In this document: positions 318 through 47,742 of the stretch, one piece after another
Layout: each line of letters starts with the position of its first letter
Position numbering within the stretch: the first letter of the stretch is position 1
Assembly: GCA_913056185.1 (NCBI GenBank)
Contig: CAJXLV010000005.1
Coordinates: forward strand, 61,124-125,123
Length of the DNA stretch: 64,000 nucleotides
Reading direction: 5' to 3'
Origin: an uncultured Bacteroidota bacterium
GTDB taxonomy: Bacteria; Bacteroidota; Rhodothermia; Rhodothermales; Salinibacteraceae
Position numbers and translations under genes: made by a program
The notes under the pieces: generated by a model
What the model saw: the letters and a program-made list of their open reading frames with translations, nothing else
Database searches by the model: none
What the model was told of the DNA's origin: nothing

Positions 318-1406
318 CTACCCCGACGCCTCACTGAACGGAAACCGGGGCGACGCGCCCGGCTCGCCGTCCCGTGCGCCACAGGTTTGCCGCACCACGA
401 GCTCCGGTGAGAATACTGTACTTGAGACCGGGGGCTCCCCTGAGGCATCAATGCGCCGCAACAGGTTTCGCGTAGCTCGGATGCCCATGGTGCGGGCCGG
501 TTGGCGAAGCGTAGTGAGGCCGGCACAGCGGCTCAGCTCAATGTCGTCGAACCCAACAATGGCGAGATCGCCGGGCACGCGGAGGTCAGATTCACGGGCT
601 GCCTGAATTGCCCCGAAGGCCTGCATGTCGGAGGCGGCAAACACGGCGTCAGGGGGCGGCCTCTGGTTCAACAGGATGCGCATGGCCCGGTAGCCACCCT
701 CGGCGGAAAAGGCGAAGGGACGCTCATCGCTGGCCGCAATAAAGCCCTGATCCACCGATCGCCCGTCATCTCGCAGCGCTTGTTCGTACCCCTCGCGACG
801 GAGACGAGCCGGGGGCGGGTCATACTCCACCGTAATGTGCCCGATGCGCTCGTATCCGAGATCAATCAGGTGCTGCGTCGCCTCGTATCCTCCTTTCCGG
901 CTGTCGACTGCGAACGACTCGAACGCCGAATGCTCAATGTCGACCAGCACGATGGACTGTCCGCTTTCTCTCAGGCGCTTGGCCCACTCGTCGGTGAGCG
1001 GCACGGAGAGCAGCAGCAGGCCATCGCTGCGGCCGGGCTGAAGGGCCCGCGCTATGTGTGCGTTAAGCGGATCCGGGTCCGGCCGCTCGTGAATACGTCC
1101 CTGCGCCTTGGCCGGCGCGTGCACCACAAGGTCCATGTCTCGGTCGGCCAGCACATGCTGGATGCCGCGCATCACGTGCATGTAAAAGTAGTTGGCCACC
1201 ACAGGCGCCACGACAGCAATCTGGTTCGTGTGCTCCCGCGCAAGATTTTGCGCCGACGCGTGCGGACGGTAGTTGAGGACGTCCGCTGCCTCGATCACAT
1301 TCTGCCGGGTCTCCTCACTCACCCCGGGTTCGTCGTTGAAGACGCGCGATACCGTGGCGGTAGATACACCTGCTCGTTCAGCAATGTCGTAAATCGTTGC
1401 TGACAC
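318..1406 (-). CDS. LacI family transcriptional regulator
   Basis: N-terminal HTH IYDIAERAGVSTATVSRVFN, then periplasmic-binding-like domain; GTG start. Confidence 0.95.
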   Translation of the reverse strand: MSATIYDIAERAGVSTATVSRVFNDEPGVSEETRQNVIEAADVLNYRPHASAQNLAREHTNQIAVVAPVVANYFYMHVMRGIQHVLADRDMDLVVHAPAKAQGRIHERPDPDPLNAHIARALQPGRSDGLLLLSVPLTDEWAKRLRESGQSIVLVDIEHSAFESFAVDSRKGGYEATQHLIDLGYERIGHITVEYDPPPARLRREGYEQALRDDGRSVDQGFIAASDERPFAFSAEGGYRAMRILLNQRPPPDAVFAASDMQAFGAIQAARESDLRVPGDLAIVGFDDIELSRCAGLTTLRQPARTMGIRATRNLLRRIDASGEPPVSSTVFSPELVVRQTCGARDGEPGASPRFPFSEASG

Positions 1407-1434
1407 AAGGACGGAAGCTAACGCAATGTTTATC

Positions 1435-1446
1435 GTAAGCGCTTAC
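1435..1446. promoter_or_regulatory. LacI-family operator-like palindrome GTAAGCGCTTAC
   Basis: Perfect 12-bp palindrome 29 bp upstream of the regulator start, in the divergent spacer with the symporter; a related half-conserved site GAAACCGCTTAC lies at 1543-1554. Confidence 0.65.
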
Positions 1447-1673
1447 ATAGTATTTTTCCTGGAATCCAATGTCAAACCGGTGAGATTGCCCCCCGCAGGC
1501 GATCCTCTCTTGCGTCCCTGCTTGTCCCTTGATACTTTTCCCGAAACCGCTTACAACCATGCTGTCGCCAATTTTTGGGCTTGCTGAGGGCAAAGCCAGC
1601 CCCACAGGCCCCTGCCCCCTTGTCTCGCGTTCCTCGGTTTCGTCCGCGTCTCCTCAGAATTGACGCCGACTCC

Positions 1674-3251
1674 ATGTCCCCGGATTTTCCGCTCGCCACG
1701 CTGGATCTCGCCATCATTGTCGGCTACTTCGCGGTTGTCGGGGGGATCGGGTACGTGGTAGCCCAGCGCATCGACAGTGGTGACGACTTGTTTCTCGCCG
1801 GGCGCACGCTCGCGTGGGGAACGATTGGGTTCTCCCTCTTTGCGTCGAACATTTCGAGCACCACGCTCATCGGGCTCGCGGGGGATGCCTACCGCACGGG
1901 CATTGCGGTGTCGAACTACGAGTGGATGGCGGGAGTGGTGCTCGTGTTCATCGCCATCTTCTTCGTGCCGTTTTTCATCCGGTCGGGGCTTACGACCATT
2001 CCAGAGTACTTGGAAAAGCGGTTCGACGTGCGGTCACGCAAGTACTTTTCGGGCCTTACCATCTTCACGAGCGTCATTATTGACACGGCGGGGGGGATCT
2101 ACGCCGGGACCGTGGTGCTGCGGACGTTCTTTCCGGAGCTGCCGTTCGTGCCCACCGCACTGGCCCTGGCCCTCATTGCGGGCGTGTACACCGCGGCGGG
2201 CGGCCTCGCGGCCGTCGTGTACACCGACATCCTGCAGGCCGTCATCCTGCTCATCGGCTCCACGTTTATCGCCGGCATCACCTTCGCGGAGTTCGACTTC
2301 TCCTGGGCCAAGGCGACGGCCCAACTGCCGGAGGGTCACCTGTCGCTCATTCGGCCGATGGACAGCGAGGGGCTGCCCTGGCTCGGCACCCTCGTGGGCG
2401 TGCCCATCCTCGGCTTCTACTACTGGGGCCTTAACCAGTACATCGTGCAGCGCATCCTGGGCGCGCGCAATCTCAAGAATGCCCGGTGGGGCGCCATGCT
2501 CGGTGGCTTTCTGAAGCTGCTGCCGCTTTTCATCATGGTGCTTCCGGGCGCCTTTGCGCTGCAGCTGTATCCAGACCTGGGAAACCCCGATCAGGTCTTC
2601 CCGACGCTCGTCACGGACCTGCTGCCGGTGGGTGTCGTGGGGATCGTGATGGCCGGCCTCATCGCCGCCATCATGTCCACCATCGACTCCACGCTCAACT
2701 CGGCCTCGACGCTCATCACGATCGACTTCATCAAGCCCCGGCGCGAGAACCTTTCGCCCGAAGAGACCGGGCGCATCGGGCGCATCACCACCATCGTGCT
2801 GATGCTCGTGGCTGCCGGCTGGGCGCCCATGATTCGGTACTTTCCGGGGCTCTGGAGCTACATCCAGTCGGTGCTGTCATACCTCGTCCCGCCGGTGGTG
2901 GCCATCTTTCTGCTCGGCGTGTTCTGGCCGCGTACGAACGGGAAGGGGGCCTTTGCCACACTGGTGGGGGGGCACGCGCTGTCCCTCGGCGTCTTTGTGC
3001 TGAGTCAGATGGGACTGATCAACCTGCACTTCACCATCATCGCGGGCCTCCTGACGGCCGTCTGCATCGGGATGCTCGTGGTGTTCTCCCTTGTGCTGGG
3101 CGACGCGCCCGCGAAGGCGAAGGTCGATGACCTGACCTGGGCCAATCGGGTATCCGGGACCGGCTCCTCGGCCGTATGGTACAAAAACTACCGCGTCCAT
3201 GCGGCCACGGTGCTCGTCCTCACAGGGGCGATGCTGGTCGTGTTCTGGTAG
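1674..3251 (+). CDS. Sodium:solute symporter (SSS family)
   Basis: Multi-TM protein with SSS hallmarks (GGIGYVVAQRIDSGDDLFLAGRTLAWGTIGFSLFASNISSTTLIGLAG; AAIMSTIDSTLNSASTLITIDF). Start set to internal ATG. Confidence 0.9.
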   Translation: MSPDFPLATLDLAIIVGYFAVVGGIGYVVAQRIDSGDDLFLAGRTLAWGTIGFSLFASNISSTTLIGLAGDAYRTGIAVSNYEWMAGVVLVFIAIFFVPFFIRSGLTTIPEYLEKRFDVRSRKYFSGLTIFTSVIIDTAGGIYAGTVVLRTFFPELPFVPTALALALIAGVYTAAGGLAAVVYTDILQAVILLIGSTFIAGITFAEFDFSWAKATAQLPEGHLSLIRPMDSEGLPWLGTLVGVPILGFYYWGLNQYIVQRILGARNLKNARWGAMLGGFLKLLPLFIMVLPGAFALQLYPDLGNPDQVFPTLVTDLLPVGVVGIVMAGLIAAIMSTIDSTLNSASTLITIDFIKPRRENLSPEETGRIGRITTIVLMLVAAGWAPMIRYFPGLWSYIQSVLSYLVPPVVAIFLLGVFWPRTNGKGAFATLVGGHALSLGVFVLSQMGLINLHFTIIAGLLTAVCIGMLVVFSLVLGDAPAKAKVDDLTWANRVSGTGSSAVWYKNYRVHAATVLVLTGAMLVVFW

Positions 3252-3467: not shown

Positions 3468-4466
3468 ATGCCCCCTTCCGTCTGTTTCGTTGTTCAGCAA
3501 GTTGCCCCGTCGGCCCCGCCGCTGTGGCTGGTCGCCCTCCTCGCAGGGACCGTGGTCGTAGGACTCGGCGTGCTTTATCGCCGCGCCTACCCGGGGATGC
3601 ACACGGGCGCCTCCTCGGACGAAGAGGAGGCGGGCACCGTCTACGTCCTGACCAACCCCGAGCACGAACACCTGGTGAAGGTCGGCTACACGACCCGGAG
3701 TGCCCAAACCCGGGCCAGAGAACTCTCGTCGGCCACCGGCGTGCCCGGCGACTTTTCCGTGGCCTACGAAGCCTCCACCCCAACCCCGCGGGCGGTGGAG
3801 CAGGCCGCCCACAGCCGGCTGTCGGATCACAAGGTGAAGCGGAACCGGGAGTTCTTTGAGGTGTCCCCACAAACAGCGCGTGAGGCCATCGAGGCCGAAA
3901 TCGGGGCACGCTCGTCGGGCGCGCGGCGCGGACTGGGGGGAGTGCTGTTGGCCGTCGCTCTCTTCGGCGGCCTGTCGCTGGTTACGTTTCATCCGGGAGA
4001 TCCGGCGCCGGAGTCTCCCCTCTCGATCGGGGACTCCCCGGAGACGGATTCTAAAAAAACCGGCGCGCACAACCTTCTCGGCCTGCCGGGCGCGTGGGGC
4101 GCGTCGCTCCTTATGCGATACGGCTTCGGCTACCTGACTCTGCTCCCAATCGGGGTACTGGGACTGGTCGGGGCTGCCTTCGTGCAGCGGCGTCCCCTGC
4201 GCCCTCTCCTGGTGCCCGCCCTGCTGATTCTCCTCGCCACCGCGGCCACTGCCAGCTTCCTCGGCGAACTCATCGCGACTGCCCCCGTCCCGGTTGGCTG
4301 GAACGGAGCCTCCCCGTCTCCGTCCGAGGTGCCTCTCTGGAACGGGGGCTACGGACAGACGCTCGCCGCGTGGCTTCGCGGGCTCTACGGCTCGGGGCGG
4401 GCCCTCCTGATTTCCGGAGCCACCGCGGGCGTCAGCACTGCCTGCCTCGCCTGGTGGGGGCGGTAG
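3468..4466 (+). CDS. Membrane protein: N-terminal TM, T5orf172/MUG113 GIY-YIG-like domain, then FtsK-type 4TM domain without an ATPase
   Basis: GTVYVLTNPEHEHLVKVGYTTRSAQTRARELSSATGVPGDFSVAYEASTP...EFFEV resembles T5orf172; TFHPGDP...AHNLLGLPGAWGASLLMRYGFGYLTLLPIGVLGLVGA resembles the FtsK 4TM domain. Confidence 0.7.
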   Translation: MPPSVCFVVQQVAPSAPPLWLVALLAGTVVVGLGVLYRRAYPGMHTGASSDEEEAGTVYVLTNPEHEHLVKVGYTTRSAQTRARELSSATGVPGDFSVAYEASTPTPRAVEQAAHSRLSDHKVKRNREFFEVSPQTAREAIEAEIGARSSGARRGLGGVLLAVALFGGLSLVTFHPGDPAPESPLSIGDSPETDSKKTGAHNLLGLPGAWGASLLMRYGFGYLTLLPIGVLGLVGAAFVQRRPLRPLLVPALLILLATAATASFLGELIATAPVPVGWNGASPSPSEVPLWNGGYGQTLAAWLRGLYGSGRALLISGATAGVSTACLAWWGR

Positions 4467-4823
4467 CGCGCGCCCCTCACATCATCACGAATCCGCGCGC
4501 CCGGACAGTGCATCCAGCTCGAGTACTGTCGAAGAATCCCTCTCGACGACGCATGAGCGATGAGACGACCTCCCTTCTGGTTGATGGCCTCCTGGTTGAT
4601 GGCCTCAACGGCGAAGGCCTGGGCGGCCCCCACGTCACGCTGATGCGCCAGATCAAGAGCGAGCCCCTCCCCGACCACGAACGCCGCCCAGGCGACCTTG
4701 TGATGATCCCGAGACAAGACCCGCGCCGCGTCGCGGGACCCCGTTGGGCTCCTTGTCGTTGGGGGCGGTGGAGCCCAAGTGGGCCCTGCTCGCCTCTTTC
4801 CACAGACGCCCCCCGTTTGCCCC

Positions 4824-7643
4824 ATGCGCCCCCCGTTCCTGCTCGTGCTGGTGACCCTTCTGCTCGCCGCCTGCACCACCGTCAACGTTCAACCACCCCC
4901 GCCGACCGACGACGAACCGGCCGCGCCGTCTGCAGAAACGGCCACGGCTAATGCCGAGACGAAGGACGACAAAGAGGCAGACGAGGACGAAGAAGACGAG
5001 GACGATCCGTTCACGCCCTGGAAAAAGGCCCTCGAGGACACCGAGGAGATTGAGGGCTTCCTCCCCCTCCACCGGACCGAGGACGGCACGCTCTACGCCG
5101 AAATCCCCGATGAGCGCCTCGGCACCCTCTTCGGACTCACCCTCCACATCAGCCAGGGCGCCGGCGTCTTTAACCTGCACGACGGCCTTCCGCTCAGCAA
5201 CACGCGCCTGATGCAGTTTCGGCGCGTAGACCACACGGTGCACCTCGTCCACCGCAACGTCCGCTTCCGCGCCGACGCAGGCCCGATGCGCCAATCGCTG
5301 ACCGACAACACGGCCCACTCCACCGTCCAGGCCTTCGACATCGTGAGCCGCAACGACTCGACGGGCCACGTGCTCGTTGAATTTTCCGACTTCCTGGTGT
5401 CCGACTATCCCCAGATCGGGGACCGCCTGCGGCTCTACTTCGGCGGGGCATCCGCCACGCTACAGCGCGGCAAGAGCTACGTGGACCGGGCGCTGGGCTT
5501 TCCGGACAACACCGAGATCGACGTGTCGCTCACCTACCAGGGGTCGAGCCCGCCACTCATTGGGGGCGAGGCGGTGCCCGACTACCGCGCCGTGCCCGTG
5601 GGCGTGCGGTACTCGCTGTTTGAACTGCCCGACACAAAAATGCAGCGACGGCTCGCCGACAACCGGGTGGGCTACTTCACCAACGCCGTAAAGGACTTCT
5701 CGCGCGACCCGCAGGCCTCCCCGTACGTGCAATACGTACAGCGCTGGCGGCTGGCCCCCAGCGACACCGCTGCGTACAAGGCAGGCGATCTCGTGGAGCC
5801 GGCCGAGCCGATTGTGTACTACGTAGACCGCACCGTTCCCGCGCGCTACCGCCCGTACGTGAGGCAGGGCATTGAGGCCTGGAACGAGGCCTTCCGGGCC
5901 GCCGGCTACAAGAACGCCGTGGTGGCCAAACGGGCCCCGGACGACTCTACCTGGAGCGCCGAGGACATCCGCTACTCCACCGTGCGCTGGACGGCGGCCC
6001 ACCAGATGGGCTACGCCATCGGCCCCTCGCAGACGGACCCGCGAACGGGCGAAATCCTGAACGCCGACATTCTCATCTCCTCCTCGTTCGTGCGCGGCTG
6101 GCAGCAATCCTTTCGTCAGCTCACGCCCGAAACGGCAGCCCCCGGCGACGCGGCGGGCCGCCTTCCGGTTCGCCCCCGCACGCCCCAGACGCTCCGCACG
6201 ATGCTCTCGCCCGCTCTCGCCCGCCGGGCCTGCTGGGCCGAGCGCGGCAAGGCCCAACAACTGGGGCTGCAGCGCACCCTGCTGCTCGCCCGCGGCCACA
6301 TGGAGCCCGGCGCTCCCATGCCCGACGACTACCTCGGCGCCGCCATCAAAGACCTTGTGATGCACGAGGTGGGCCACACGCTCGGCCTGCGCCACAACTT
6401 CAAGGCCTCCTCCGGCATCCCCAGCGACAAGCTCCACGACGAACGCTACACCCGGGAGCACGGCGTCAGCCTCTCGGTGATGGACTACGCGCCGGTAAAC
6501 GTGGCGCTCAACGAAGACAAGCAGGGCCACTACTGGAACCCAAACGTGGGGCCCTACGACGAGTGGGCCATCCAGTACGGCTACATGCCCATTGCGGAAC
6601 AGGCGGAGAAGGGCCCGCTCACGCAAAACGGCCCCCTGGCCGACACCCTGACCGCCGAGACGGCCGGGCTCGACAAGATTGCCGCTGCGTCGAGCGACCC
6701 GGAGCACCGCTACGGCACCGACGAGGACACCTGGCTGGGGGCCTACGCCGTCGATCCCCTCACCAACGCCTGGGAGCTGGGCCACGACCCCAAGGCGTTT
6801 GCCCGCTCCCGCACCCGGCTCGTGGACAAGGTGATGCCGAAGCTCGATGAACGGCTCGTGGCGGAGGGCGAACGCTACTCCCCCCTCCGCCGGGCTACCA
6901 CGTCCCTCCTCCTCACCCGCTACCAGGCGCTCCTCCCGGTCGCCAAATCCGTGGGTGGCAACTACGTGGCCCGCGACCACAAGGGCACGCCCAACGCCCG
7001 CCCCCCGCTCCGGCCCGTGCCGGCAGAAGAGCAGCGCGCGGCCGTGCAGTTGCTCGTCGACGACGCTTTTGCCCCCGACGCCTTTCAGTTTGAGGCCGAG
7101 CGCCTCAACAAGCTGGCGCCCAACCGCAACAACCACTGGGGCGCCTCGCTGAGCCTGCCGGTGGACTACCCCGTGCACAGCTACGTGGACCGCGTGCAGT
7201 CGAACCTGCTCCGCGAGCTGCTCCATCCGGCCCGCCTGCGGCGCATGATCGACAATGACGTGCGCACCTCGGGCGACACCTACCGGCCCGGTGCTCTCCT
7301 GCAGGACCTGACGGCGGCCATCTGGAGCGAACTGAATGCGAGCGCCCCCCCAACCCCCATCAACTCGTTCCGCCGCCCGCTGCAGCGCACCTACACCGAC
7401 CTGCTCATCGAGCTCATGATGGGCAAAACCAGCTGGATCACCATCACGATGGCCGGGGCCGACCAGGTGGAGTCTCCCGAGGACGTGCGCTCAATGGCGC
7501 GGCTCGAACTGGCCGAACTGGCCGACCGGGTCGCCCAGGCCCTTCAGGCCTCGGGCCTCGACCGGGAAACGCAGGCCCACCTCGCCGAGACGAAGGCCCG
7601 CCTCGACCGCGCCCTCAATGCCTCGCTGGACCTGGCCCCGTAA
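4824..7643 (+). CDS. Zinc-dependent metalloprotease lipoprotein (metzincin-like, DUF5117-type)
   Basis: Lipobox LLAACTT; catalytic HEVGHTLGLRHN and downstream SVMDYAPVN Met-turn. Confidence 0.9.
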   Translation: MRPPFLLVLVTLLLAACTTVNVQPPPPTDDEPAAPSAETATANAETKDDKEADEDEEDEDDPFTPWKKALEDTEEIEGFLPLHRTEDGTLYAEIPDERLGTLFGLTLHISQGAGVFNLHDGLPLSNTRLMQFRRVDHTVHLVHRNVRFRADAGPMRQSLTDNTAHSTVQAFDIVSRNDSTGHVLVEFSDFLVSDYPQIGDRLRLYFGGASATLQRGKSYVDRALGFPDNTEIDVSLTYQGSSPPLIGGEAVPDYRAVPVGVRYSLFELPDTKMQRRLADNRVGYFTNAVKDFSRDPQASPYVQYVQRWRLAPSDTAAYKAGDLVEPAEPIVYYVDRTVPARYRPYVRQGIEAWNEAFRAAGYKNAVVAKRAPDDSTWSAEDIRYSTVRWTAAHQMGYAIGPSQTDPRTGEILNADILISSSFVRGWQQSFRQLTPETAAPGDAAGRLPVRPRTPQTLRTMLSPALARRACWAERGKAQQLGLQRTLLLARGHMEPGAPMPDDYLGAAIKDLVMHEVGHTLGLRHNFKASSGIPSDKLHDERYTREHGVSLSVMDYAPVNVALNEDKQGHYWNPNVGPYDEWAIQYGYMPIAEQAEKGPLTQNGPLADTLTAETAGLDKIAAASSDPEHRYGTDEDTWLGAYAVDPLTNAWELGHDPKAFARSRTRLVDKVMPKLDERLVAEGERYSPLRRATTSLLLTRYQALLPVAKSVGGNYVARDHKGTPNARPPLRPVPAEEQRAAVQLLVDDAFAPDAFQFEAERLNKLAPNRNNHWGASLSLPVDYPVHSYVDRVQSNLLRELLHPARLRRMIDNDVRTSGDTYRPGALLQDLTAAIWSELNASAPPTPINSFRRPLQRTYTDLLIELMMGKTSWITITMAGADQVESPEDVRSMARLELAELADRVAQALQASGLDRETQAHLAETKARLDRALNASLDLAP

Positions 7644-30899: not shown

Positions 30900-32414
30900 T
30901 TATCGAGCCTCGCGTCGCAGCGCCATGAATCGCTTGCGGTAGGCAACCGCCTCCTCGCGGTTCCCGAGGCGACGGTGCTGGTTGACCAGGGTGCGGTAGA
31001 GGCGCATCTTGTCCTTCGTTCCCAACTCGTCCGGGCGCTGAGCGGCGCGCTCAAGGTAGTCGATGGAGGCTTCCACATCGTTGCGCAGGAGCTGCCCGAC
31101 CTCCAACTCGGCCAGCGCCCGCTGCTTCCATGCCACCGCGGCCGACTGTTTTAAGTATTTCAGAGCGGTGCGGAGGTTCTTGCGCCGGAACCGGCGGCCC
31201 AGGTTCAGGCAGATGGTGCCGTAGGTATTCAGGTATCGCTGCGTGGTGGAATCCGCGGCGGCGCTCGCAGTCGTGTCAGGGCGCGGGGCAAGGCGCTGCA
31301 CAAGCCGCTGCAATCGGTCGGCCGCCGGCTGGCGCTCGCCCAGCTGGTACTCAGCCTGGGCCAGGCGCCAGTCAACCTCGTTGCGGGCCGACGCGGTGCG
31401 GAGCTGTGATTTGAGCGCGCGAAAGCCTTCCGCAGCAGCGGCAGCGTCGCCGCGGCCCGCCAGCTGCTGCAAGGAGTCCCGCGCAAAACTGGCGGCGATA
31501 TTCCCGTCGTCCCAGTTGATCCACTCCACCCATCCCTGCATCGACCGCCGCTGGGCGGGGGTGATGGCATACGTCTTGGCCCGGCGGTAGGCCCGAAGCG
31601 ATTGCTCCGCCTCCCGCGCGTACCGAAATGCCTCCGCCTCCGCTCGGGCGTAGTTGTACACCCGCCCGGAGTCCACCCGGACAGAGTCCAGCGCAAGCTC
31701 TACCGATTCGAGATACGTATCGAGCGCCCGGCCGTAATTGGTCGCCGCTGCGTCGTAGCGCTCAATCTGGAAATAGACGTTGGCGAGACCGAGGTACAGG
31801 CCGGGCTGATCCTTCCGGAGACGCGTAAGCTTCTGATAGATGGCAATTGCCTTCTGGTAGTCTTCCTCGCGCCCCAGCCGATTTGCCCGTCGCTGGTACA
31901 CCTGCGCCAGCAGGCTCTGCGTGCCCTGGTCGTAGGGATTGAGCTGAATGGCCTCTTCAAATGCCGTCTGTGCGTTTTTCAAGAGGTCAGCCTGCATCTG
32001 GGCCAGCTTCGCACTGTCCAGCTCTGCCGCCCGCGTCACCTTTTGGTACTTAATCAACGATTTGGCACCGCGGTTGTAGGCGCGCAGGGCCTCCGCACGT
32101 CGGTCCTGGCCTACACTGTCGGCCGCACTCGTATCGGCGGCCAGGTCGAGATATTTCCAGAGCGTATCGCTCACCTCCACCAGTGAGTCCCCCCTCTCGA
32201 CTTGCGACCGGGCCTCCTGCTGTTTCTCCAGAGACACGAACGCGTCCTGTGCCATGGAATCGGCCCTCTGAGCCGTACTGCTGTCCACCCCTGGCGGCAC
32301 ATACGCACGAAAGCTACGGGAGGAGGCGTCCGGCGTAGGGGCTGTGGTGGGCTCGCTCGTCCCACATCCCACAAGAAGCACGGCAACGGCAAGAATCGAG
32401 AGCGATCGCATCAT
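30900..32414 (-). CDS. TPR-repeat lipoprotein
   Basis: Lipobox LLVGCG; TPR-like AIQLNPYDQGTQSLLAQVYQRRANRLGREEDYQKAIAIYQKL. Confidence 0.8.
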   Translation of the reverse strand: MMRSLSILAVAVLLVGCGTSEPTTAPTPDASSRSFRAYVPPGVDSSTAQRADSMAQDAFVSLEKQQEARSQVERGDSLVEVSDTLWKYLDLAADTSAADSVGQDRRAEALRAYNRGAKSLIKYQKVTRAAELDSAKLAQMQADLLKNAQTAFEEAIQLNPYDQGTQSLLAQVYQRRANRLGREEDYQKAIAIYQKLTRLRKDQPGLYLGLANVYFQIERYDAAATNYGRALDTYLESVELALDSVRVDSGRVYNYARAEAEAFRYAREAEQSLRAYRRAKTYAITPAQRRSMQGWVEWINWDDGNIAASFARDSLQQLAGRGDAAAAAEGFRALKSQLRTASARNEVDWRLAQAEYQLGERQPAADRLQRLVQRLAPRPDTTASAAADSTTQRYLNTYGTICLNLGRRFRRKNLRTALKYLKQSAAVAWKQRALAELEVGQLLRNDVEASIDYLERAAQRPDELGTKDKMRLYRTLVNQHRRLGNREEAVAYRKRFMALRREAR

Positions 32415-32449
32415 GCAAACGGGAAAACTGAAAAGATCTGTGCACAACG

Positions 32450-33505
32450 TCACACGTCTGCCTTCGCCTCGTCCCACCACGAAAGAAAGACGCTGTAGAA
32501 CTGCTTCGACTTCTGTCCCCTCGACTGGGCGCGGGTCTGCACCCCGATGATGGTGCCGCCGCTGCGGCGAATCGGCCCGACTCGAAACTTCCGGCTCTGC
32601 TTCTGGAAGCTGCGGTCAACCAGGTACTTGGCCTCTCCGTTCTGCACAAGGACTACGTGGATCTCGCGAAGATCGGGCTTGCACATGAGGTACATTTCGT
32701 ACTCGCCCTGACTCGTTGACAGGTCGCTAATCGTGGACGATAGAAAGCTGGGCTGGTACCCCACGAGCTGATTGATGCCAGGCGGGAGGGCGGCAGGATT
32801 CTGGCGCATCCACTGAATCAGCTTGCTCGCTTCTACGCTCGTATAGTCCTCCTGGCTGGCGTCCTGAATGGTTACCGCTGCCGCGCCGTCGCCTTCTGAG
32901 TCCGCCTCCTCCGCCCCCGCCGCGAGGGGACCGCCGCTCGCAAATGCGTCCTCGCCCCCGCCCCCGGATGATCCATCTCCGGCCTCCTCCACCGCGATGC
33001 CGGCCCCGCTGCCACTGCCGCCTGAAGGCTGCGACGGGGCGTTGGGCAGGGCCGCCGCCGTGGGCGAACGGGACGATTCGGATGCATCGAGCCCGCCCAC
33101 CTGAGTCCGCTCCACCGATACCTCGCCGCCGCCGGACGAGGCCTCCACCTCGGCCTCCGACTGCGCGTCCGCGGCCGCCGTGGCCTGGGGGGTGGGCTCT
33201 TGGGTGGGAGAGTTGAGCTGCAGGTCCGGCGCCTCGATCCGCTCCGGCGTTGTCTCCGGCTCTTCCTCCTGCGGCTCTTCCGGCTCCTCCTCCGGCTGCT
33301 CCGTGGACTGCTCCGGGGGGGGATCGGGGCGCAGCTGGGTGAGCTGCGCCGGGTCGATCTCCTTAAATGTGTCGCGGGGACTCCGAAATTCCGGCACGCT
33401 CACCACGGCCATCAACACCGAGGACAGCACCACCATGCCCACTGTTGCCAGTGCGGCGACGCGGCGCCGGACAGAACTGTCATCCCGAGGAGACGGTGTA
33501 ATCAT
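32450..33505 (-). CDS. TonB/TolA-like protein: single TM, Pro/Glu-rich spacer, non-canonical C-terminal domain
   Basis: TM VAALATVGMVVLSSVLMAVV then PDPPPEQSTEQPEEEPEEPQEEEPETTPE; directly after two ExbD-like genes. Confidence 0.65.
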   Translation of the reverse strand: MITPSPRDDSSVRRRVAALATVGMVVLSSVLMAVVSVPEFRSPRDTFKEIDPAQLTQLRPDPPPEQSTEQPEEEPEEPQEEEPETTPERIEAPDLQLNSPTQEPTPQATAAADAQSEAEVEASSGGGEVSVERTQVGGLDASESSRSPTAAALPNAPSQPSGGSGSGAGIAVEEAGDGSSGGGGEDAFASGGPLAAGAEEADSEGDGAAAVTIQDASQEDYTSVEASKLIQWMRQNPAALPPGINQLVGYQPSFLSSTISDLSTSQGEYEMYLMCKPDLREIHVVLVQNGEAKYLVDRSFQKQSRKFRVGPIRRSGGTIIGVQTRAQSRGQKSKQFYSVFLSWWDEAKADV

Positions 33506-33507
33506 GG

Positions 33508-33933
33508 CTACAGCTGAAGCTCACTCTTATTGATGTTTTTGGCGATGCCCAGGCGGTCGCACACGTCCATCACGTCGACGGTGTGCTGTACGGCCGACTC
33601 GTCGCTGGGCTCAATCAGCACAATGGGGCGGCGGTCGTTGCCCTCAAGCCGGTCCTTCGTTGCACGCAGACAGTCTTCCAGGGCGGCCCGCCCGTCTGGG
33701 GCACAAATCTCTTCTGCAGGCTCCACTTGTCGCACGACGAATTGCCCCGCCTTTGCCACATCCACCCGCACGAACGTAAGCGACTGCTGCTGCGACGCCT
33801 CGCTCTGCTCTGGCGGCTTGTTGGGCATCTCGATGTGCGTGAACGAGCTGATGTCGCTGATCCAGAGAAACCCGAGCAGCAAGATGAGCCCAATGTCGAT
33901 AAACCGAATCAAAAATCCGCTGCTGCTGAGCAT
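33508..33933 (-). CDS. ExbD/TolR-like protein (copy 2)
   Basis: RFIDIGLILLLGFLWIS TM helix with ExbD-type Asp; 141 aa; next to copy 1. Confidence 0.7.
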   Translation of the reverse strand: MLSSSGFLIRFIDIGLILLLGFLWISDISSFTHIEMPNKPPEQSEASQQQSLTFVRVDVAKAGQFVVRQVEPAEEICAPDGRAALEDCLRATKDRLEGNDRRPIVLIEPSDESAVQHTVDVMDVCDRLGIAKNINKSELQL

Positions 33934-33948
33934 AGAGGGAAAGAACCG

Positions 33949-34344
33949 TTAGCGTGAGCGATTAATTTCGACCTCGATGGACTTCGGAATGCCAAGCTGT
34001 TTGCAGATCTTGGCCGCCTGCATAAGGTAGTAAATTGGGGCTGTCTGGCTGCTGCGGAGGCGCGCTTTCATCTCCGCTCGGCCGAGGGCGTCTCGCTTCT
34101 GCCGTAAGAATGTCCGGAGCTTCGCAGGGGTGCGCAGTGTTCGGCGTTCATCCTCCACGAGAAACGACCCGTCGTTTTGGATGCTCACAAAAACGATTTG
34201 GCTCGGGTCGATGTTTTTGTAGGGGGCCTCAGAACTCTCCGGGGGCTGCACGCTGCTGGGCTTGATGCTGGAGATGCAGATGAACCCGAAGAGCAGAATG
34301 AGCACGATGTCGACGAAGCGTAGCAGGTATCCGGCCTGTCCCAT
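33949..34344 (-). CDS. ExbD/TolR-like protein (copy 1)
   Basis: RFVDIVLILLFGFICISSI TM helix with Asp; 131 aa; downstream of ExbB-like gene. Confidence 0.75.
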   Translation of the reverse strand: MGQAGYLLRFVDIVLILLFGFICISSIKPSSVQPPESSEAPYKNIDPSQIVFVSIQNDGSFLVEDERRTLRTPAKLRTFLRQKRDALGRAEMKARLRSSQTAPIYYLMQAAKICKQLGIPKSIEVEINRSR

Positions 34345-34420
34345 GTCGCACGAAAGGGAAGTCTAAACAGGAAAGCGGAGAGGAACGGGGCTCCTGCCCC
34401 AGCGTCTACTGCCTCGGCGT

Positions 34421-35947
34421 CTATTGCCCCAGCGTCATGGCCTGAAACTGCACCGTCTCACTCCCGATGCTCGCTTCTACGGTGTTTAGCCCGGGCTCTG
34501 CGCCGACGGCGAAAGGCACCGCCGCCTGCCCTTCCTCGTCGGTGGTTACCTCTTGGGTTTGCGCCCCGTCGCCAAAGGTGCCCCCGCCGGAGACGACCTC
34601 AAACCGGACGGTGTGGTCGGGAACGGGATTTTTGTATTCGTCGGCCAGCGCCACGAGGAGGGGATTGGGCAGTTCCTGCCCCCCGGCCGCGCCCTGGTTG
34701 TTGCCCTGGGTGCGGTAGTGGTGGGGCGCCGCGGGGCGGGCCTGTACGCTGAGGGTGCGAGCGGCCGATGCCTCAGCGCCCGGCAGCTGGGCCTCCGCCG
34801 TGCAACGGCCCGCCGCCTCGGGCAGCGCCCAGTCAAACTGCACCGTACCGTCTTCCTCTGTCCGCAGCGTCACCTCGGCATGGCTTCCGTTGAGGGTGCC
34901 GTCGTCCGCCCCTACCCGTACCTGTACCGGCACATCAGGGACAGGCGTGCCGTCTTCTGCCGCGGCCCGGAGCTGCACCGCAGACAGCTCGGTCCCGACC
35001 ACGCCCTCCTTCGGAATGCCAACGAGCTCCAGGCGCTGGGGCGTGGGGGGGGCGGCAGTTGCCGTGGCGGAGGCTGTGGAGGCCGGGACGCCTGCGTCCG
35101 GCGCGCCCGCCGCACTGGCTTCCGCGGGCGAGGGGGCCGCCGGGGACGCCTGCCCGTCTCCGCTGCCGTCCGGGACGGAGCCCTCGGCGGCGGCGCCGTT
35201 TTTATGGGGCGACAACTCCAGAAGGCGGAAGCGCAACTCATCGCCCTCGTCCTCAATCTGATCGATGCGGCTGTCGAAGAAGCTGTAGACTTCCGTCGAG
35301 ATGAGGTTGAGGGTAATGCTCGCAATGAGTCCCAGGAGCGTCGAAATCAGCGCAACGCCCATGCCCCCAAGGATGGCCTGCTTGTCGCTGATGTTGCCAC
35401 CGTAGAAGAGCGTAAACATGCCCCATACGGTTCCGAGCAGGCCCACGGCGCCCGCCGTGTCCGCCAAGAAATCGACCCGCCGCTTAAACGTATCGAACCG
35501 CTCGCGCTGCGACTGCACAAAGTTGGCCACCTCCTCGTGCAGGGTTCCGGCGTCCTGGGTGGTGCGATACACATTCAGCAGCGTCGCGTGCATCTCCGCA
35601 AGCATGCTCTGCTGCTGGTCCTGCACCAAGTCCACGATCTCCTGCGTGCCCATCTCCGGAATGTGCGCCTCCTCCAGTGCAGCCCCCGCCCAGCGGTCCT
35701 GAAACAGCTCGTACACCTTCGCGAGGATGAGGAAGAGCCCGATCGCCAGGATGCCCAAAATGGGCCATTGGAAGCCCCCTGCCTTTCCAATAATGTTCCA
35801 CAGAACGAGCCCGCCCTCCGAGCCCGCCGCGGCCGTTGTGTCGGCGGCTTGCTGGGCATAGCTGACGCCTGCAGGGCCGCCAATCAGGAATAGAGTGACA
35901 AAAGCAATCCGAAAGCACGTATTCATTGCGCGCATGGGCCAGTTCAC
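34421..35947 (-). CDS. MotA/TolQ/ExbB proton channel protein with C-terminal Ig-like (Big_1-type) extension
   Basis: VGLLGTVWGMFTLFYGG...GGMGVALISTLLGLIASITLNLIS; then Ala/Pro linker and two Ig-like segments including LPNPLLVALADEYKNPVPDHTVRFEVVSGGGTFGDGAQTQEVTTDEEGQAAVPFAVG. GTG start or in-frame ATG downstream. Confidence 0.85.
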   Translation of the reverse strand: MNWPMRAMNTCFRIAFVTLFLIGGPAGVSYAQQAADTTAAAGSEGGLVLWNIIGKAGGFQWPILGILAIGLFLILAKVYELFQDRWAGAALEEAHIPEMGTQEIVDLVQDQQQSMLAEMHATLLNVYRTTQDAGTLHEEVANFVQSQRERFDTFKRRVDFLADTAGAVGLLGTVWGMFTLFYGGNISDKQAILGGMGVALISTLLGLIASITLNLISTEVYSFFDSRIDQIEDEGDELRFRLLELSPHKNGAAAEGSVPDGSGDGQASPAAPSPAEASAAGAPDAGVPASTASATATAAPPTPQRLELVGIPKEGVVGTELSAVQLRAAAEDGTPVPDVPVQVRVGADDGTLNGSHAEVTLRTEEDGTVQFDWALPEAAGRCTAEAQLPGAEASAARTLSVQARPAAPHHYRTQGNNQGAAGGQELPNPLLVALADEYKNPVPDHTVRFEVVSGGGTFGDGAQTQEVTTDEEGQAAVPFAVGAEPGLNTVEASIGSETVQFQAMTLGQ

Positions 35948-37767
35948 TTTTTGTTAGGAGCAGGATCGTCGTCGGTGCGGATCTCGATGGCGTCGGACGG
36001 GGCCTCCAGGACGCCGGGTTGTTGTGTCACTTCGAAGGTGATTTTCCGGACGGTTTTCTGGACGGTGAATTTTTTCTTGTTCGACCGGTAGGTGCGCCCG
36101 TTCAGGCCCTCCCATTCCAGGACGTAGGTGTATACGCCCTGGTCCAGCGGCTCGCCCTGGTCGTCGGTCCACGACCACGTCAGCTGTGCAGGCGGCACGC
36201 CGCGCCCACGGAAGAGGCGCACCGGCACACCGGCCCGGTCCTGGATGCGGACGCGCCAGAGGCCGTCTCGCCCCTTCAGGTAGGGGAAGAGGAGCGTAAA
36301 GGTGGTGCGTTCGGGGTTAAGGATGTGCAGGCGCGTTTCTCGCGGAAGGCGGAGAGAGTCGGCAGGCGCGGCGGCGGCGGTGTCCGTCGGCGCAATCACG
36401 CGAAGCTGCTCCGGAGACAAATCGGTGGTTTCGCGGAGACGGTTGTACAGCCCGTAGGTCCGGAGGCTGTCCTTTGCGCCCGCAATGAGCTGTAGCGTAT
36501 TGGGCGACTGGGCAGCGAGGCGCTGCGAGAGCCGGCCGAAGGTGGAATCGTACGTCGCCGTGAGCACATCGGGGAGCTTCACGTAATCGGGCACAGCGTC
36601 GACGGGCCGGCCGGGCGTGCGGCCACGCGTGGAAGCAAAGCTGCTGTCGAGGCGCCCCAGGCCTTGCTCTGCCAGGGCCGCCTCTACGGCCGGCGGCACG
36701 TCCACGGCACGCTCCACCCGCTTTTCCAGGTGCTGCATGGTGGGGTGCGGAGACGAGATGTACAGGCTTGGGCGCAGGCGTGGCGCGACCTCCGTTCGCT
36801 CCGCCTCCAGCATCAGTGACGGTGGCTCCGGCATCTCCGGCGGCTCCGGCGCCCGGCCAAATTCGTACACCACCCCAAACCGGTGGGAGCCAGTGGAGGC
36901 GCTGCGCAGGGACGAGGTCGGCAGGGTGTACTGATAGTTTACGCTCAGCGGCCCCCCGACATGCAATTGTCCCTCCACGCGGCCGGTGTTGAACATCGCG
37001 TCGCTCCCCACCCGCACGTATGAGCCGTCGGTCGAGTACGCCTCCACGCCCGCCCGCACGTCCAGTCCATACTCGCCGTGCGACACTTCCGCCCGCGCCC
37101 GGATGGGGCCGACGGCATAGGACGCGCCCCCAAAAATCTCCGGTTCGGCCCGGAAGGTGCCACCTCCGAGAGCGAGATTGGGCCGGTTGAGATTGCGCAC
37201 CCCCGCGGCAAGATTGAGCGCGGGCAGCGGCTTGGCAAACAGCCCAAGCGTGCCGGTAAGCGTGGTTTTGCCCGTGCCTTGCTCAAACACCGGATCGGGC
37301 TCTACCCCTACGAACTCGCTTCGGTTGTACGACAGGTTGAGGGCCGAGACCCGCGCCCCGACCGAGAACACCTGCAGGAAGCGCCCCGAGACGCTCAGCC
37401 CAAACGCGCGCTTCTTAAAAATGGGCGTGTCAAAATAACGGACGGCGCCCCCCACTCCCAGCCAATCGCCCACCAGGAATGGGGTCGAGGCCGCAAGGTA
37501 TCCCTGCCGCAGCGGCACCCCCGATGCGCTGCCCAGGCCTACGTGGTGCGCCTTGGCACCCAGCGCAATTTGTGTACGGTGAAACCCCATGGTGGCGGGA
37601 TTGCGCAGCATCGACGTTGCATCGTCGAGCGCCATGGACGGCCCCGTGATGAAGCGCTGCGCGTGGCTTATAGGCGGCAACAGCGCGCCGACCAGCAGCA
37701 GAAGAGCGCCCCAGGCCCATCCAGAATGTCTGGAAACGTCAATCATGCTGTGTATCCCGTTTCCCAT
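35944..37767 (-). CDS. PorP/SprF-like outer-membrane protein with extended C-terminal region
   Basis: Signal peptide; ITGPSMALDDATSMLRNPATMGFHRTQIALGAKAHHVGLG...; barrel-like repeats, FlgD-like WSWTDDQGEPLDQGVYTYVLEWEG near C-terminus; start overlaps upstream stop (TAATG). Confidence 0.65.
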   Translation of the reverse strand: MGNGIHSMIDVSRHSGWAWGALLLLVGALLPPISHAQRFITGPSMALDDATSMLRNPATMGFHRTQIALGAKAHHVGLGSASGVPLRQGYLAASTPFLVGDWLGVGGAVRYFDTPIFKKRAFGLSVSGRFLQVFSVGARVSALNLSYNRSEFVGVEPDPVFEQGTGKTTLTGTLGLFAKPLPALNLAAGVRNLNRPNLALGGGTFRAEPEIFGGASYAVGPIRARAEVSHGEYGLDVRAGVEAYSTDGSYVRVGSDAMFNTGRVEGQLHVGGPLSVNYQYTLPTSSLRSASTGSHRFGVVYEFGRAPEPPEMPEPPSLMLEAERTEVAPRLRPSLYISSPHPTMQHLEKRVERAVDVPPAVEAALAEQGLGRLDSSFASTRGRTPGRPVDAVPDYVKLPDVLTATYDSTFGRLSQRLAAQSPNTLQLIAGAKDSLRTYGLYNRLRETTDLSPEQLRVIAPTDTAAAAPADSLRLPRETRLHILNPERTTFTLLFPYLKGRDGLWRVRIQDRAGVPVRLFRGRGVPPAQLTWSWTDDQGEPLDQGVYTYVLEWEGLNGRTYRSNKKKFTVQKTVRKITFEVTQQPGVLEAPSDAIEIRTDDDPAPNKK

Positions 37768-40700
37768 TAGCGTGCAAGCGTGATGTGGCCGGACGAAACC
37801 GTCTCGCCCCCGTCCTCCACGACGTATAGGTACACCCCTGGGGGTTGCCCATCGCCTCCAGAATCGGTACCATTCCACCGGAGCTCTCCGGCCTGGAGCT
37901 GGTCGATGGTGCGCAGCTCTCGCCCCTCAAACGTGTAGATCCGCAGCACAGGCTGCCGCAACCCAAACTCGCTCACCTTGAACCGGACAGTGTCGTTAAT
38001 GCCGTCTCCGTTCGGGGTGAACGGATTGGGCGCTACCGACAGCTGGTCGGGGCGCTGAACGGTAAGGGTTAGCACTGCAGTGTTGTTGTCCAACCGCCCC
38101 CGCTCGTCAACCTGCTCCTCCGGATCCACTTCGCAGCGAATCTCCGTGCGGCCCTCTTGCGGAAATGCGATCGATATGGTTGGCGTCTGCGCGGCCGCCC
38201 CCACCCCCAATCCCTCCACGGTCTGGGATTCTACGGTCGTCCCTCCCCGCGAGACGCGCACCTGGAACGGGCCCGCATCGGCAGAGCCCTGGTTGGCATA
38301 GTCGCAAACAACCCCCAGCGTGTCATCGATCTGGACGTTATCGGCACTGCGCCCGACGCTCCGAAGATCTTCGGCGACCAGGTCGGGCGCCGGGGGCGGC
38401 TGGACCGTCAGCGTGCGCTCCACGACATTATTGGTCGTTCGCCCACGCTCGTCCACCTCTCCCTCTGCGTCCGCCGTACAGCGGATGGTTACCGTCCCCG
38501 CGGCCACCAGCGGAACGGTCGTCGTGTCCGTTTGCACCGTGGCCCCCACCGACAGCGAGTCCACCGTCTCCTCTTGCACCCGCGCGCCGTTGCGGGCAAT
38601 CCCCACCAAAAACGACCCCGCCCCCTCACTGCCCGCATTCGAGATCGTGCACGCCACCGCCACCGAATCCGTCACGCGCAGCGGACTCGGCACCTCCCCC
38701 ACCAAGTCCAGCGACTCCGCGACCAGGTCGGGCGCCGGGGGAGCAAGCACCTCGATCGTTCGCTCCACCCGATTGTTGTCCTCCCGTCGTTCGTCCACCT
38801 CCGCGTCCGCGTCCACAACACAGGCCAGCCGTGCGGTGCCCGGCGTCGGAAACGATACCTGGACCGCTTCCGCGCGAACCGTCGCCCCCGTCGCCAGGGA
38901 ATCGTAAGAGCGAGTCTGCACCCGATTGCCGTCCCGCAAGACGGCGAGGGAGAAGGGGCCGCTCGTGGTGTCGCCCTGGTTGGAAAACTCACACACCACC
39001 CCGCGGCGTTCGGTCGCACGTACGGTATCGTCAGGGCCGTCCACAATGTCCAGCGCCTCGGCCACGAGGTCCGCCTTCAGGGGCGCGGTGCTCCCCCGAA
39101 GCACCACCTTCGTCGTATCGGCGCCACAGTTGCCAGACGTGATTACCGCCGCGGTGTCGACATAGGCACGGTTTGGCTCCGGTGGATCGAACCGAAAGGT
39201 GGCCGTTCGCCCCCCTCGATCCGGAATGAGCGCAGGCATCTGCTCCACAGCAAACGCCGCGCCATCAAGCCCCAGCACTGTATCGACCTGCGCGTCGATA
39301 TTGCCGTCGTTCTCGAGGGTGGTTTGACGCGTTGCCGTACTGCCGGCGTAGACCTCCCCGAAGGAGAGAGTGTCCGGGATGGCGGCAATAGCCGCCTCTA
39401 CGCCGGTGCCCGACAGGTTGATGGACACGCCCTGTGTCCCCATCGCCGTTCCAGTCTCTTCGGTCAGCTCCAGCACCAAGCTGCCCCCGTAAAGGCCACG
39501 CTGTGTGGGGGCAAAGGCAATCTCAAGCGCGCGGCTCTGGTCCGGCGCCAGGGTATCGGGGACGGAGGAGACCAGCGCAAAGCCGTCGGGAACCGACAGC
39601 GCACGCACCACCAGCGGCCGATTCGTGAGATTGGTCACGGACACGGTCGCTGTGCTATCATCGCCCACGCACACTTCCCCAAATGCAACCTGCGTGCGAC
39701 TCACGATGCCAAGTCCCGGGCGTCCACCTTGGTTTCTGAGAACCTGAAGACGGCCGCCCGATTGGTCGGCCACTACGTAGTCCTGGTCCTCATCCCGGTC
39801 GAGGTCCAGTGCGGCCCCGCCCACCGGCGGAAAGGCGGTTTTCACGAGGCGATCCGGAATAAACTCGTCGTTGTCTCGGTTGCCCGCAACCTGTACCGTA
39901 TCCTGGGGGGAGTGGGTGCTAAACAGGTCCAGATCATAGGTCGATTCCTGCTCCGGGTCCACATCCGCAAGGCCGACAGTGCGGGCGGGAGACGACGGCG
40001 ATGCAATGTCCTGCCGGTCGAACGCAAACTCGCCCGTGCCCCGGTTCGCAAACCCGAGCACCCGGTCCTGGTCTTGGCCGGCAACCACCAAATCCACCCA
40101 TCCATCCCCCACCGTTCCCCCCTGCGTTCCGAACACATCCCGCGCCGCAAGCACAGCCGGCACGAAGGGCAGCGACTGGCGCCCCGCCCCGACCGAAAAC
40201 GTGCCGGCACCCTCATTCTTGAGCCAAAGGATCGCCTCCTCCGCAGCACTCGTCACGAGCAGATCCAGGTCTCCATCCCGGTCCACGTCCCGCGCAACAA
40301 CACTGGTGAGCGCCGCGCTTCCGACGGTCGGCTGCCCCTCGGAAAACCCACCAGTGCCGTCGTTCACGTGCACCACACTTCCGCTTCCACCAAACGGCGT
40401 GACGACAAGGTCCGGGGCTCCGTCCCCAGTTACATCTGCAATCTCTACGTCCGTGGGCCGTGATCCTGTCGGCACCCGAGAGATGCTCCACCCGCTCGGC
40501 TCGTTCAGAAGGATGCCGAGGGAATCTTGAAAGCTGTGTACCGTCACAAGATCGGGCCGCCCATCGCCGTTCACATCCCCCTGCGCAAGGGTGACCGCCC
40601 CCGGCATGGAAATCAACGACGCGTTGGAGAGCGTACTTCCATATCGCACCTGCACAGTGTCACTGGGTTGATGCACGACCGCGACATCGGCCCGTTGGTC

Positions 40701-41252
40701 CTCATTGAAGTCTGCCGACACCACCGCCGACGGGATGGACACGCCTCCCACCTTCACAGGCGGTGCCTCCGCCTCGGCCCCTGCTCTTGCCAGCGCCTGC
40801 GGCCTCTGCACGGGCGGCTCCGGCTCGAAGATGCCGGTTCCGTACTCGGTACGAACCGTGAACTGCCACACGTACGGCGCCCCGATCGGCGTGCCCCCCA
40901 CCTGCAGGTCCTCGGAAAGCACCACCGTCACCTGCTCTCCCGGGCGAAAAGGCTCATCGGGCACGTACAAAAGCGTGTCCCCCGTCGGCCGCCCCGTCCC
41001 TGAGATGCGTCCGGAACGGCTGCCGTACACGTCAACCAGGTCTTGCCCGGGCGGGATCTCCACCGCCCCCGCGAACTCGACCCGCACAGAGTCGGTCGGC
41101 TCCGCCACGACCGACCCCTGAGCCGGCGCGACGGCCTGGACCTCACCCGTCTGCGCGTGGGCCTGGGACAACGCCACCGCGCCCCACAGCCCACAGAAAA
41201 GAAGGAGCACGAGCCACCACCGGCCCGTCGCGCTCAGAGCGCTTGCCATCAT
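37767..41252 (-). CDS. Large secreted protein with FG-GAP/VCBS-like repeats, CARDB-like repeats and a T9SS type-B/FlgD-like C-terminal domain
   Basis: DFNEDQRADVAVV, GDVNGDGRPDLVTV repeats; three PDLVAE.. units; C-terminus VAPNPFTPNGDGINDTVRFKV...GVYLYVVEDGGETVSSGHITLAR. Confidence 0.85.
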   Translation of the reverse strand: MMASALSATGRWWLVLLLFCGLWGAVALSQAHAQTGEVQAVAPAQGSVVAEPTDSVRVEFAGAVEIPPGQDLVDVYGSRSGRISGTGRPTGDTLLYVPDEPFRPGEQVTVVLSEDLQVGGTPIGAPYVWQFTVRTEYGTGIFEPEPPVQRPQALARAGAEAEAPPVKVGGVSIPSAVVSADFNEDQRADVAVVHQPSDTVQVRYGSTLSNASLISMPGAVTLAQGDVNGDGRPDLVTVHSFQDSLGILLNEPSGWSISRVPTGSRPTDVEIADVTGDGAPDLVVTPFGGSGSVVHVNDGTGGFSEGQPTVGSAALTSVVARDVDRDGDLDLLVTSAAEEAILWLKNEGAGTFSVGAGRQSLPFVPAVLAARDVFGTQGGTVGDGWVDLVVAGQDQDRVLGFANRGTGEFAFDRQDIASPSSPARTVGLADVDPEQESTYDLDLFSTHSPQDTVQVAGNRDNDEFIPDRLVKTAFPPVGGAALDLDRDEDQDYVVADQSGGRLQVLRNQGGRPGLGIVSRTQVAFGEVCVGDDSTATVSVTNLTNRPLVVRALSVPDGFALVSSVPDTLAPDQSRALEIAFAPTQRGLYGGSLVLELTEETGTAMGTQGVSINLSGTGVEAAIAAIPDTLSFGEVYAGSTATRQTTLENDGNIDAQVDTVLGLDGAAFAVEQMPALIPDRGGRTATFRFDPPEPNRAYVDTAAVITSGNCGADTTKVVLRGSTAPLKADLVAEALDIVDGPDDTVRATERRGVVCEFSNQGDTTSGPFSLAVLRDGNRVQTRSYDSLATGATVRAEAVQVSFPTPGTARLACVVDADAEVDERREDNNRVERTIEVLAPPAPDLVAESLDLVGEVPSPLRVTDSVAVACTISNAGSEGAGSFLVGIARNGARVQEETVDSLSVGATVQTDTTTVPLVAAGTVTIRCTADAEGEVDERGRTTNNVVERTLTVQPPPAPDLVAEDLRSVGRSADNVQIDDTLGVVCDYANQGSADAGPFQVRVSRGGTTVESQTVEGLGVGAAAQTPTISIAFPQEGRTEIRCEVDPEEQVDERGRLDNNTAVLTLTVQRPDQLSVAPNPFTPNGDGINDTVRFKVSEFGLRQPVLRIYTFEGRELRTIDQLQAGELRWNGTDSGGDGQPPGVYLYVVEDGGETVSSGHITLAR

Positions 41253-41253
41253 G

Positions 41254-42276
41254 CTATTCGTCCTCATCGGTTCGTACACGCTGTAGGCGAGTCCGGAGCT
41301 CGTTCACGGCGGCCTCATCGCCGAGTCGTTCGTACGCAATCACCAGCCGCTGCAGGGCCTGCAGGTCGTCGGGGCGCCGCTGCAAGACGCGACGGTAGGT
41401 CTGTGCCGCCGCCTCTGCGCGTCCCAGCGCTCCGTAGGCCTCTCCCAGTGCCCGAAGCACCTTCACGGAGGTCTCTCCACCGGCCAGCCGCTCCAGCAGG
41501 GGCAGGGCTTGCCCGTACTTCTCACGGTTGAACAGCAGAAACGCATAGTCACGGCGCACCGTGGACGACGGTGCGGTCTGGAGCAGCTTGTCAAACGCCC
41601 CGAGCGCCTCGGGCCACTGCTCGGTCTCCACAAACGCATACGCCAGTCGCTTACGAATCCGGGGCTGGGGCGACGACTGCTCCAGGGCACGCCGACCGTA
41701 CCGAATGGCTGCAGAGTAGTCGTCGGCCTCCGCCGCCAAGGCCGAAAGGTTGTTGAGGAGCTCAATGTCCTCGGGCGCCATCTCCAGCGCCTCGCGGTAG
41801 GCGGCCCGCGCCTCCTCGGGGCGCCCCGCCTCCACCCGCACCTGCCCCAGGGCTTTCACCGGTGCCACATTGTCCGGTTGGATCACCCGCACGGCCTGAA
41901 AAGCCGCCTCCGCCGCTCCATACGCGCTGCTCTCCAGCGCCTTCGTCCCCGTCGCAAACTCCTCGCGGGCGTGCTTCTGCTTCACATACCGGATTTGCTC
42001 GGCAAATCGTGGAGACTGTGCCCGAGAAGCGTCGAGAGCAGAGATGCCCTTCTTGTACGCGCCCTCGCGCATGTACAACCGCCCGAGTAGAAAATGGGCT
42101 TCTGCATTTTCCGGCTCGCTACGCGTGGTCTGCACGAGCAACTGCTTCGCGGCTGCCGTATCGTTCATCCGCTCGTAATTGCTGATGCGGCGGGCAAGAT
42201 CGCTCTCACACCCCCCAAGCACCACCATCACGGCCAGGAGCAAAGGCAACCGATACGGTAACGCAGAAGGAAGCAC
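41254..42276 (-). CDS. TPR-repeat lipoprotein
   Basis: Lipobox MVVLGGCESD; multiple TPR units (AEAHFLLGRLYMREGAYKKGISALD; PRIRKRLAYAFVETEQWPEALGAFDKL); GTG start. Confidence 0.88.
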   Translation of the reverse strand: MLPSALPYRLPLLLAVMVVLGGCESDLARRISNYERMNDTAAAKQLLVQTTRSEPENAEAHFLLGRLYMREGAYKKGISALDASRAQSPRFAEQIRYVKQKHAREEFATGTKALESSAYGAAEAAFQAVRVIQPDNVAPVKALGQVRVEAGRPEEARAAYREALEMAPEDIELLNNLSALAAEADDYSAAIRYGRRALEQSSPQPRIRKRLAYAFVETEQWPEALGAFDKLLQTAPSSTVRRDYAFLLFNREKYGQALPLLERLAGGETSVKVLRALGEAYGALGRAEAAAQTYRRVLQRRPDDLQALQRLVIAYERLGDEAAVNELRTRLQRVRTDEDE

Positions 42277-47224: not shown

Positions 47225-47742
47225 TGCGATATCAGGTTGCTCTCGTCAAACTCGGATGGGGGGACGACGTTGATCTTGCCCTGCATGTTGTGATGGGCCG
47301 CCCCGCAGTACTGGTGGCAGATGATGCCGTAGCTTTTGGCCTCAGGGAAGCGCGTGCTAAAGGTCGCAATCTGCCCCGGAATGATTGTCGCATTCAGGCC
47401 GCTTCCCGGCACTTCAAACCCGTGCATGACGTCTGGGGCCGTCATGTGGAAGGTAATCCTGGTGTTGGCCGGGAGGGTCAGGGGCTGGGTGCTTCCCGGC
47501 CGGAAGATAAACTGCTGGGCGATCATGTAGACCTCGTAGTGGTCGTCGCTGATCTTGCGCACCCCCGGCCTGGAAAACTCTTCGTCCGAGAGAACGGTTG
47601 TCGGGTCAACCTGTCGACCCTCCTCAATGCCGGGCACCTTCAGGTCCATCACTGTGAAGCCGAAGAGCACAATGCCGATGAACCCTGCGATCAGGAGCAG
47701 GGACAGCCCGATCCAGAGCTTTTCGAAACGGTGGACGTGCAT
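47221..47742 (-). CDS. cbaB: Cytochrome c oxidase subunit II, CuA domain, ba3-type
   Basis: CuA motif CHQYCGAAHHNM; DVMHGFEVPG; overlaps subunit I start. Confidence 0.93.
   Translation of the reverse strand: MHVHRFEKLWIGLSLLLIAGFIGIVLFGFTVMDLKVPGIEEGRQVDPTTVLSDEEFSRPGVRKISDDHYEVYMIAQQFIFRPGSTQPLTLPANTRITFHMTAPDVMHGFEVPGSGLNATIIPGQIATFSTRFPEAKSYGIICHQYCGAAHHNMQGKINVVPPSEFDESNLISQ

Follow-up and report, generated by a model that had tools for sequence, protein, structure and literature searches.

A T5orf172 domain joined to the FtsK 4TM region in one Salinibacter genome: a candidate membrane-tethered nuclease

Why should a protein carry a nuclease-like domain together with the membrane region of FtsK, and no FtsK motor? 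Near the start of the window (the whole 64,000-nucleotide stretch analyzed), an open reading frame with an ATG start (3468..4466, + strand) encodes 332 residues in the order TM helix, T5orf172 domain and FtsK 4TM region, and an in-frame TTG at 3390 offers a possible longer N terminus. Its composition is that of coding DNA by codon-position G+C, with GC3 of 0.81 and 0.80 in the two halves, and the frame outscores the other five. The frame lies inside a 125-kb contig of a draft genome (93.9% complete, 79 contigs), and the fusion is known from this one sequence. The first-pass annotation had read the same succession of TM, T5orf172/MUG113 and FtsK 4TM, allowing that either domain might fall short of significance. 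That reading stands, as both domains were significant in Pfam and above the curated cut-offs; since all these matches exceed curated thresholds, they are not chance hits. Matches to PsbJ were set aside as chance matches of a hydrophobic helix.

The T5orf172/MUG113 domain, a member of the GIY-YIG superfamily, spans residues 56-142 (3633..3893, + strand; PF10544, E 6.5e-18, 65.5 bits against a cut-off of 20, profile positions 1-98 of 101), and MUG113 (PF13455) matches in Pfam at residues 70-142 (1e-11). Across 28 aligned T5orf172 sequences, Y59, K71, G73, T75, R82, E111, E128 and F130 are invariant and H115 is nearly so. The catalytic Arg and Glu of the superfamily are present as R82 and E111, and the Tyr and Gly equivalent to those of GIY/YIG as Y59 and G73. 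These four positions appear equivalent to residues of I-TevI and of SNIPE, a GIY-YIG nuclease that is anchored in the membrane and cleaves phage DNA as it is being injected (PMC13190303), and alignment with the SNIPE-like relatives L152 and L153 points to E111 as the counterpart of the SNIPE catalytic Glu. SNIPE activity is lost in the E414A mutant (PMC13190303); likewise, the T5orf172 domain of ICP1 Gp88/Odn retains the catalytic Arg and Glu (PMC8263062), and Odn nuclease activity requires the Glu (PMC10448857). We infer from its residues that the T5orf172 domain of the fusion is probably a nuclease.

Structure prediction and profile searches addressed the same domain. AlphaFold2, given an alignment of T5orf172 relatives without FtsK rows, modeled the nuclease block with pLDDT of 88-98 in beta-beta-alpha-beta-alpha order and the 4TM part poorly, and a single-sequence model of the protein was poor (pLDDT 50). 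Foldseek returned strong matches to viral T5orf172 models; against the PDB the best match (0.46) was not significant, and three of the top four were the GIY-YIG proteins Slx1 and UPF0213. Among PADLOC profiles, the nuclease part alone matched PDC-S57 (5.6e-26) and PD-Lambda-1, the SNIPE profile (1.4e-6).

The FtsK_4TM region occupies residues 159-325 (3942..4442, + strand; PF13491, 2.8e-12, 47.1 bits against a cut-off of 23.1, profile positions 11-156 of 171). In an alignment that includes 32 distinct FtsK sequences, it covers all four helices and stops where the FtsK linker would start, so that linker and motor are both missing. Of the 34 near-invariant columns of the FtsK 4TM (at least 85% one residue), 23 are kept, but identity to any FtsK reaches no more than about 31-33%, hydrophobicity is weak in the last helix (1.37), and the region falls on a long branch whose place in the tree is uncertain. 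The retention of core positions despite such divergence suggests that the 4TM has long been under selection.

An origin as a truncated or frameshifted ftsK was rejected. No FtsK_SpoIIIE motor was found in the frame, which ends at the fourth FtsK helix, as the first-pass annotation had noted in saying that the protein stops before any motor/ATPase region, and no motor match lies near it. Genome-wide, there are two FtsK_4TM regions and one FtsK_SpoIIIE motor; the sole motor and the stronger FtsK_4TM (1e-25) belong to a single open frame of 930 aa on another contig, C24. Because the only motor of the genome belongs to this separate FtsK, the fusion is not a broken ftsK, and the intact FtsK that the first-pass annotation had proposed to look for also disposes of its concern that a sequencing error had cut the protein from its ATPase. 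Two short FtsK_4TM frames in relatives were rejected as comparators: the one in G001 runs off the contig end and the one in G037 continues in another frame, so neither supports free-standing 4TM proteins. In the single-contig genome of G037, ftsK itself (C1, near 3613453) is split over two frames by a frameshift or sequencing error.

Ahead of the nuclease domain lies an N-terminal transmembrane helix, predicted N-out (residues 19-40; 3522..3587, + strand), with a mean hydropathy peak of 2.28 at residues 19-37 and an AlphaFold2 helix at 19-40; such an N-terminal membrane anchor is also a feature of SNIPE. In all, five TM helices are predicted, the assignments resting on hydropathy and AlphaFold2 only. 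Lys and Arg number 0 in residues 1-18, 14 in the nuclease loop, 3 in the eight-residue loop 239-246 and 0 in loop 268-300, a positive-inside pattern that predicts an N-out, C-in protein with a cytoplasmic T5orf172 domain. In this topology the 4TM would be oriented as in FtsK.

The closest T5orf172 domains found, 43-55% identical, belong to three proteins on S. ruber plasmid pSR60 (NZ_CP030371.1; WP_162893031.1, WP_118827736.1 and WP_118827737.1), each joined to a different multi-TM N terminus: Pmp3 in P0003 (8.3e-9), a zinc-ribbon-like region with four hydrophobic segments in P0004, and two hydrophobic segments, read from the sequence and without a family match, in P0005. These proteins come from the same genus as the fusion and, like it, place a related nuclease domain on multi-TM membrane segments, but their anchors are all N-terminal and none is FtsK-like, whereas the FtsK 4TM of the fusion follows the nuclease domain. 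P0004 and P0005 adjoin an MmeI-family type IIG restriction-modification enzyme and a protein with an SNase domain, and the whole region (46560-59046 of the pSR60 record), with its three anchored T5orf172 proteins, is a candidate defence cluster. Since the relatives use several unrelated, non-septal anchors and some lie in a defence cluster, the common feature seems to be attachment to the membrane.

Such tethering is not general among T5orf172 proteins: a predicted TM segment is absent from most of the viral and bacterial ones sampled, the exceptions including SNIPE-like proteins and two viral proteins with C-terminal segments. The latter, on IMG/VR contigs L098 (2986-3618) and L103 (2962-3414), could be superinfection-exclusion nucleases, judging from their predicted TM segments. 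A full SNIPE (PD-Lambda-1, 3.9e-164) occurs in a different family of this order (L155; G058:C1 near 703527), and no true SNIPE relative was found in the fusion-bearing genome.

Mapping the two domains across genomes, we found their combination once. No second genome with both appeared among 60 relatives or 396 genomes of the phylum, nor in a T5orf172 search of 114 genomes of the order; the two were not found together in phage and plasmid records, whole-protein scans of viral and genome contigs with short peptide patterns, which are not exhaustive, gave no relative, and none of 13 genus genomes has an orthologue. The same architecture was not found in the open-access literature searched. All these searches agree with the first-pass statement that no protein of this architecture had been described, and the architecture is so far that of one genome. 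T5orf172 itself is accessory in the family, with a match, mostly weak, in 8 of 27 genomes.

Downstream of the fusion, the next conserved gene on the + strand, a Met-zincin (4779-7643), is present in all 13 genus genomes, and the region upstream of it varies between species. Among the neighboring proteins scanned, no defence genes were seen. Upstream of the fusion, window positions 318-3251 and a further 12 kb hold a carbohydrate-use locus (SusC/SusD, alpha-amylase, LacI regulator and sodium:solute symporter), and no symporter match was found beside the Met-zincin in the congeners examined. Elsewhere in the window, a cluster on the - strand (30900-42276) encodes MotA/TolQ/ExbB-like, ExbD-like and TPR proteins and a large CARDB/FG-GAP protein that bears a type IX secretion (CHU_C) signal.

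We put at about an even chance the explanation that the fusion is a SNIPE-like membrane-tethered nuclease that has borrowed its anchor from FtsK. It would be an inner-membrane protein whose T5orf172 domain forms a cytoplasmic loop, flanked by a single N-terminal helix on one side and the captured FtsK 4TM bundle on the other. Anchoring would keep the nuclease domain away from the host chromosome and position it at the sites on the inner membrane through which foreign DNA arrives, during phage injection and possibly other DNA uptake, and the tethered nuclease would then cut the incoming DNA; the 4TM would be an interchangeable anchor that could also bias the protein toward the division site. 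The features that argue for this explanation are two significant domains in one coding frame, active-site residues invariant in 28 sequences, PADLOC matches to PDC-S57 and PD-Lambda-1 (nuclease part only), a charge pattern that places the nuclease domain in the cytoplasm, pSR60 relatives on three membrane N termini, two of them adjoining a type IIG enzyme, and the precedent of SNIPE, whose homologues carry FtsB, PilO, PspB or DivIVA-like modules (PMC13190303). Against it stand the occurrence in a single genome, a neighborhood of carbohydrate-use genes and a Met-zincin with no defence genes seen, the lack of DUF4041 or another recognition module, and PDB fold matches short of significance.

That the fusion is a recent accident without selected function, now drifting, or an assembly artefact, is unlikely, although the fusion is a singleton without an orthologue in 13 genus genomes, with its 4TM on a long branch, and comes from a draft of 79 contigs. 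The intact frame inside a 125-kb contig, the coding composition of both halves, and the survival of active-site residues and, despite high divergence, of FtsK core positions all speak against it. Slightly less probable is septal targeting through the FtsK 4TM, as the first-pass annotation had suggested. In this reading the nuclease would be a defence or chromosome-processing enzyme with the divisome as its address, and its substrate would be DNA entering at the division site or already present there (trapped chromosome, dimers or plasmids). The N-terminal domain of FtsK serves as its anchor and interacts with proteins of the divisome (PMC13277299), and in one model septal localization of the SpoIIIE complex is due to its TM domains (PMC4423119). 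The 4TM of the fusion also retains 23 of 34 near-invariant positions. However, low identity to any FtsK, the long branch and the weak last helix argue otherwise, the anchors on close relatives of its nuclease domain have no septal link, and nuclease activity at the division site would put the chromosome at risk. No description of divisome-addressed GIY-YIG nucleases was found in the open-access literature. Targeting to the septum or terminus is thus possible but not the reading best supported by our analysis.

Two further explanations concern the nuclease domain itself. It might merely bind DNA or RNA and tether nucleic acid to the membrane without cutting, in keeping with the many viral proteins whose T5orf172 domain is annotated as DNA-binding; this is improbable, because the catalytic Arg and Glu of the superfamily are retained and that Glu is required by the T5orf172-type domains of Odn and SNIPE (PMC8263062, PMC10448857, PMC13190303). 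Finally, T5orf172 is often carried by phage homing endonuclease genes (PMC10448857) and is accessory in this family, but it is highly improbable that a protein with five predicted TM helices, no DNA-binding module and a gene outside any intron, intein or phage belongs to a mobile homing endonuclease lineage or is a remnant of one.

SNIPE, published in 2026, showed that membrane anchoring of a nuclease lets bacteria distinguish incoming phage DNA from their own (PMC13190303). If, despite lacking DUF4041, the fusion and its Salinibacter cousins share this mode of action, membrane-tethered T5orf172 nucleases would form a broader class, in which a constant nuclease domain is combined with a swapped anchor, be it Pmp3, another multi-TM anchor or the FtsK 4TM. 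The FtsK version would then test whether a tethered nuclease can be aimed at one membrane site.

Among known systems, SNIPE, like the fusion, combines a membrane anchor with a GIY-YIG/T5orf172-type nuclease domain, cytoplasmic by prediction in the fusion; SNIPE is toxic without its anchor (PMC13190303). SNIPE homologues have N-terminal regions resembling FtsB, PilO, PspB and DivIVA (PMC13190303), envelope modules borrowed as anchors, where the fusion carries the FtsK 4TM; FtsK goes unmentioned in the main text of that paper (PMC13190303). However, SNIPE has one N-terminal TM, a middle DUF4041 and a C-terminal nuclease, whereas the fusion has a central nuclease followed by a four-helix FtsK bundle. 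The DUF4041 recognition module is needed for SNIPE defence (PMC13190303); neither a Pfam match to it nor another recognition module was found in the fusion, and the PD-Lambda-1 profile is matched at positions 352-448 of 496 only. Since DUF4041 is absent, the fusion is not SNIPE. PDC-S57, a PADLOC defence candidate, is the best profile match of the nuclease domain, but its models run to about 210-245 aa and only the first 90-100 positions match (3-91 of 212), the C-terminal part being missing in the fusion. With FtsK/SpoIIIE, the fusion shares a 4TM membrane domain in the same predicted orientation; it lacks their linker, motor and gamma domain and adds a helix and a nuclease domain before the 4TM. 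Like ICP1 Odn (Gp88), it is a chimera of a T5orf172 nuclease domain and a captured targeting module, which in Odn is the DNA-binding RepA_N rather than a membrane anchor (PMC8263062). Membrane-tethered GIY-YIG nucleases with borrowed envelope modules are already known, and the pairing of the FtsK 4TM with T5orf172 appears new against the genomes and open-access literature searched.
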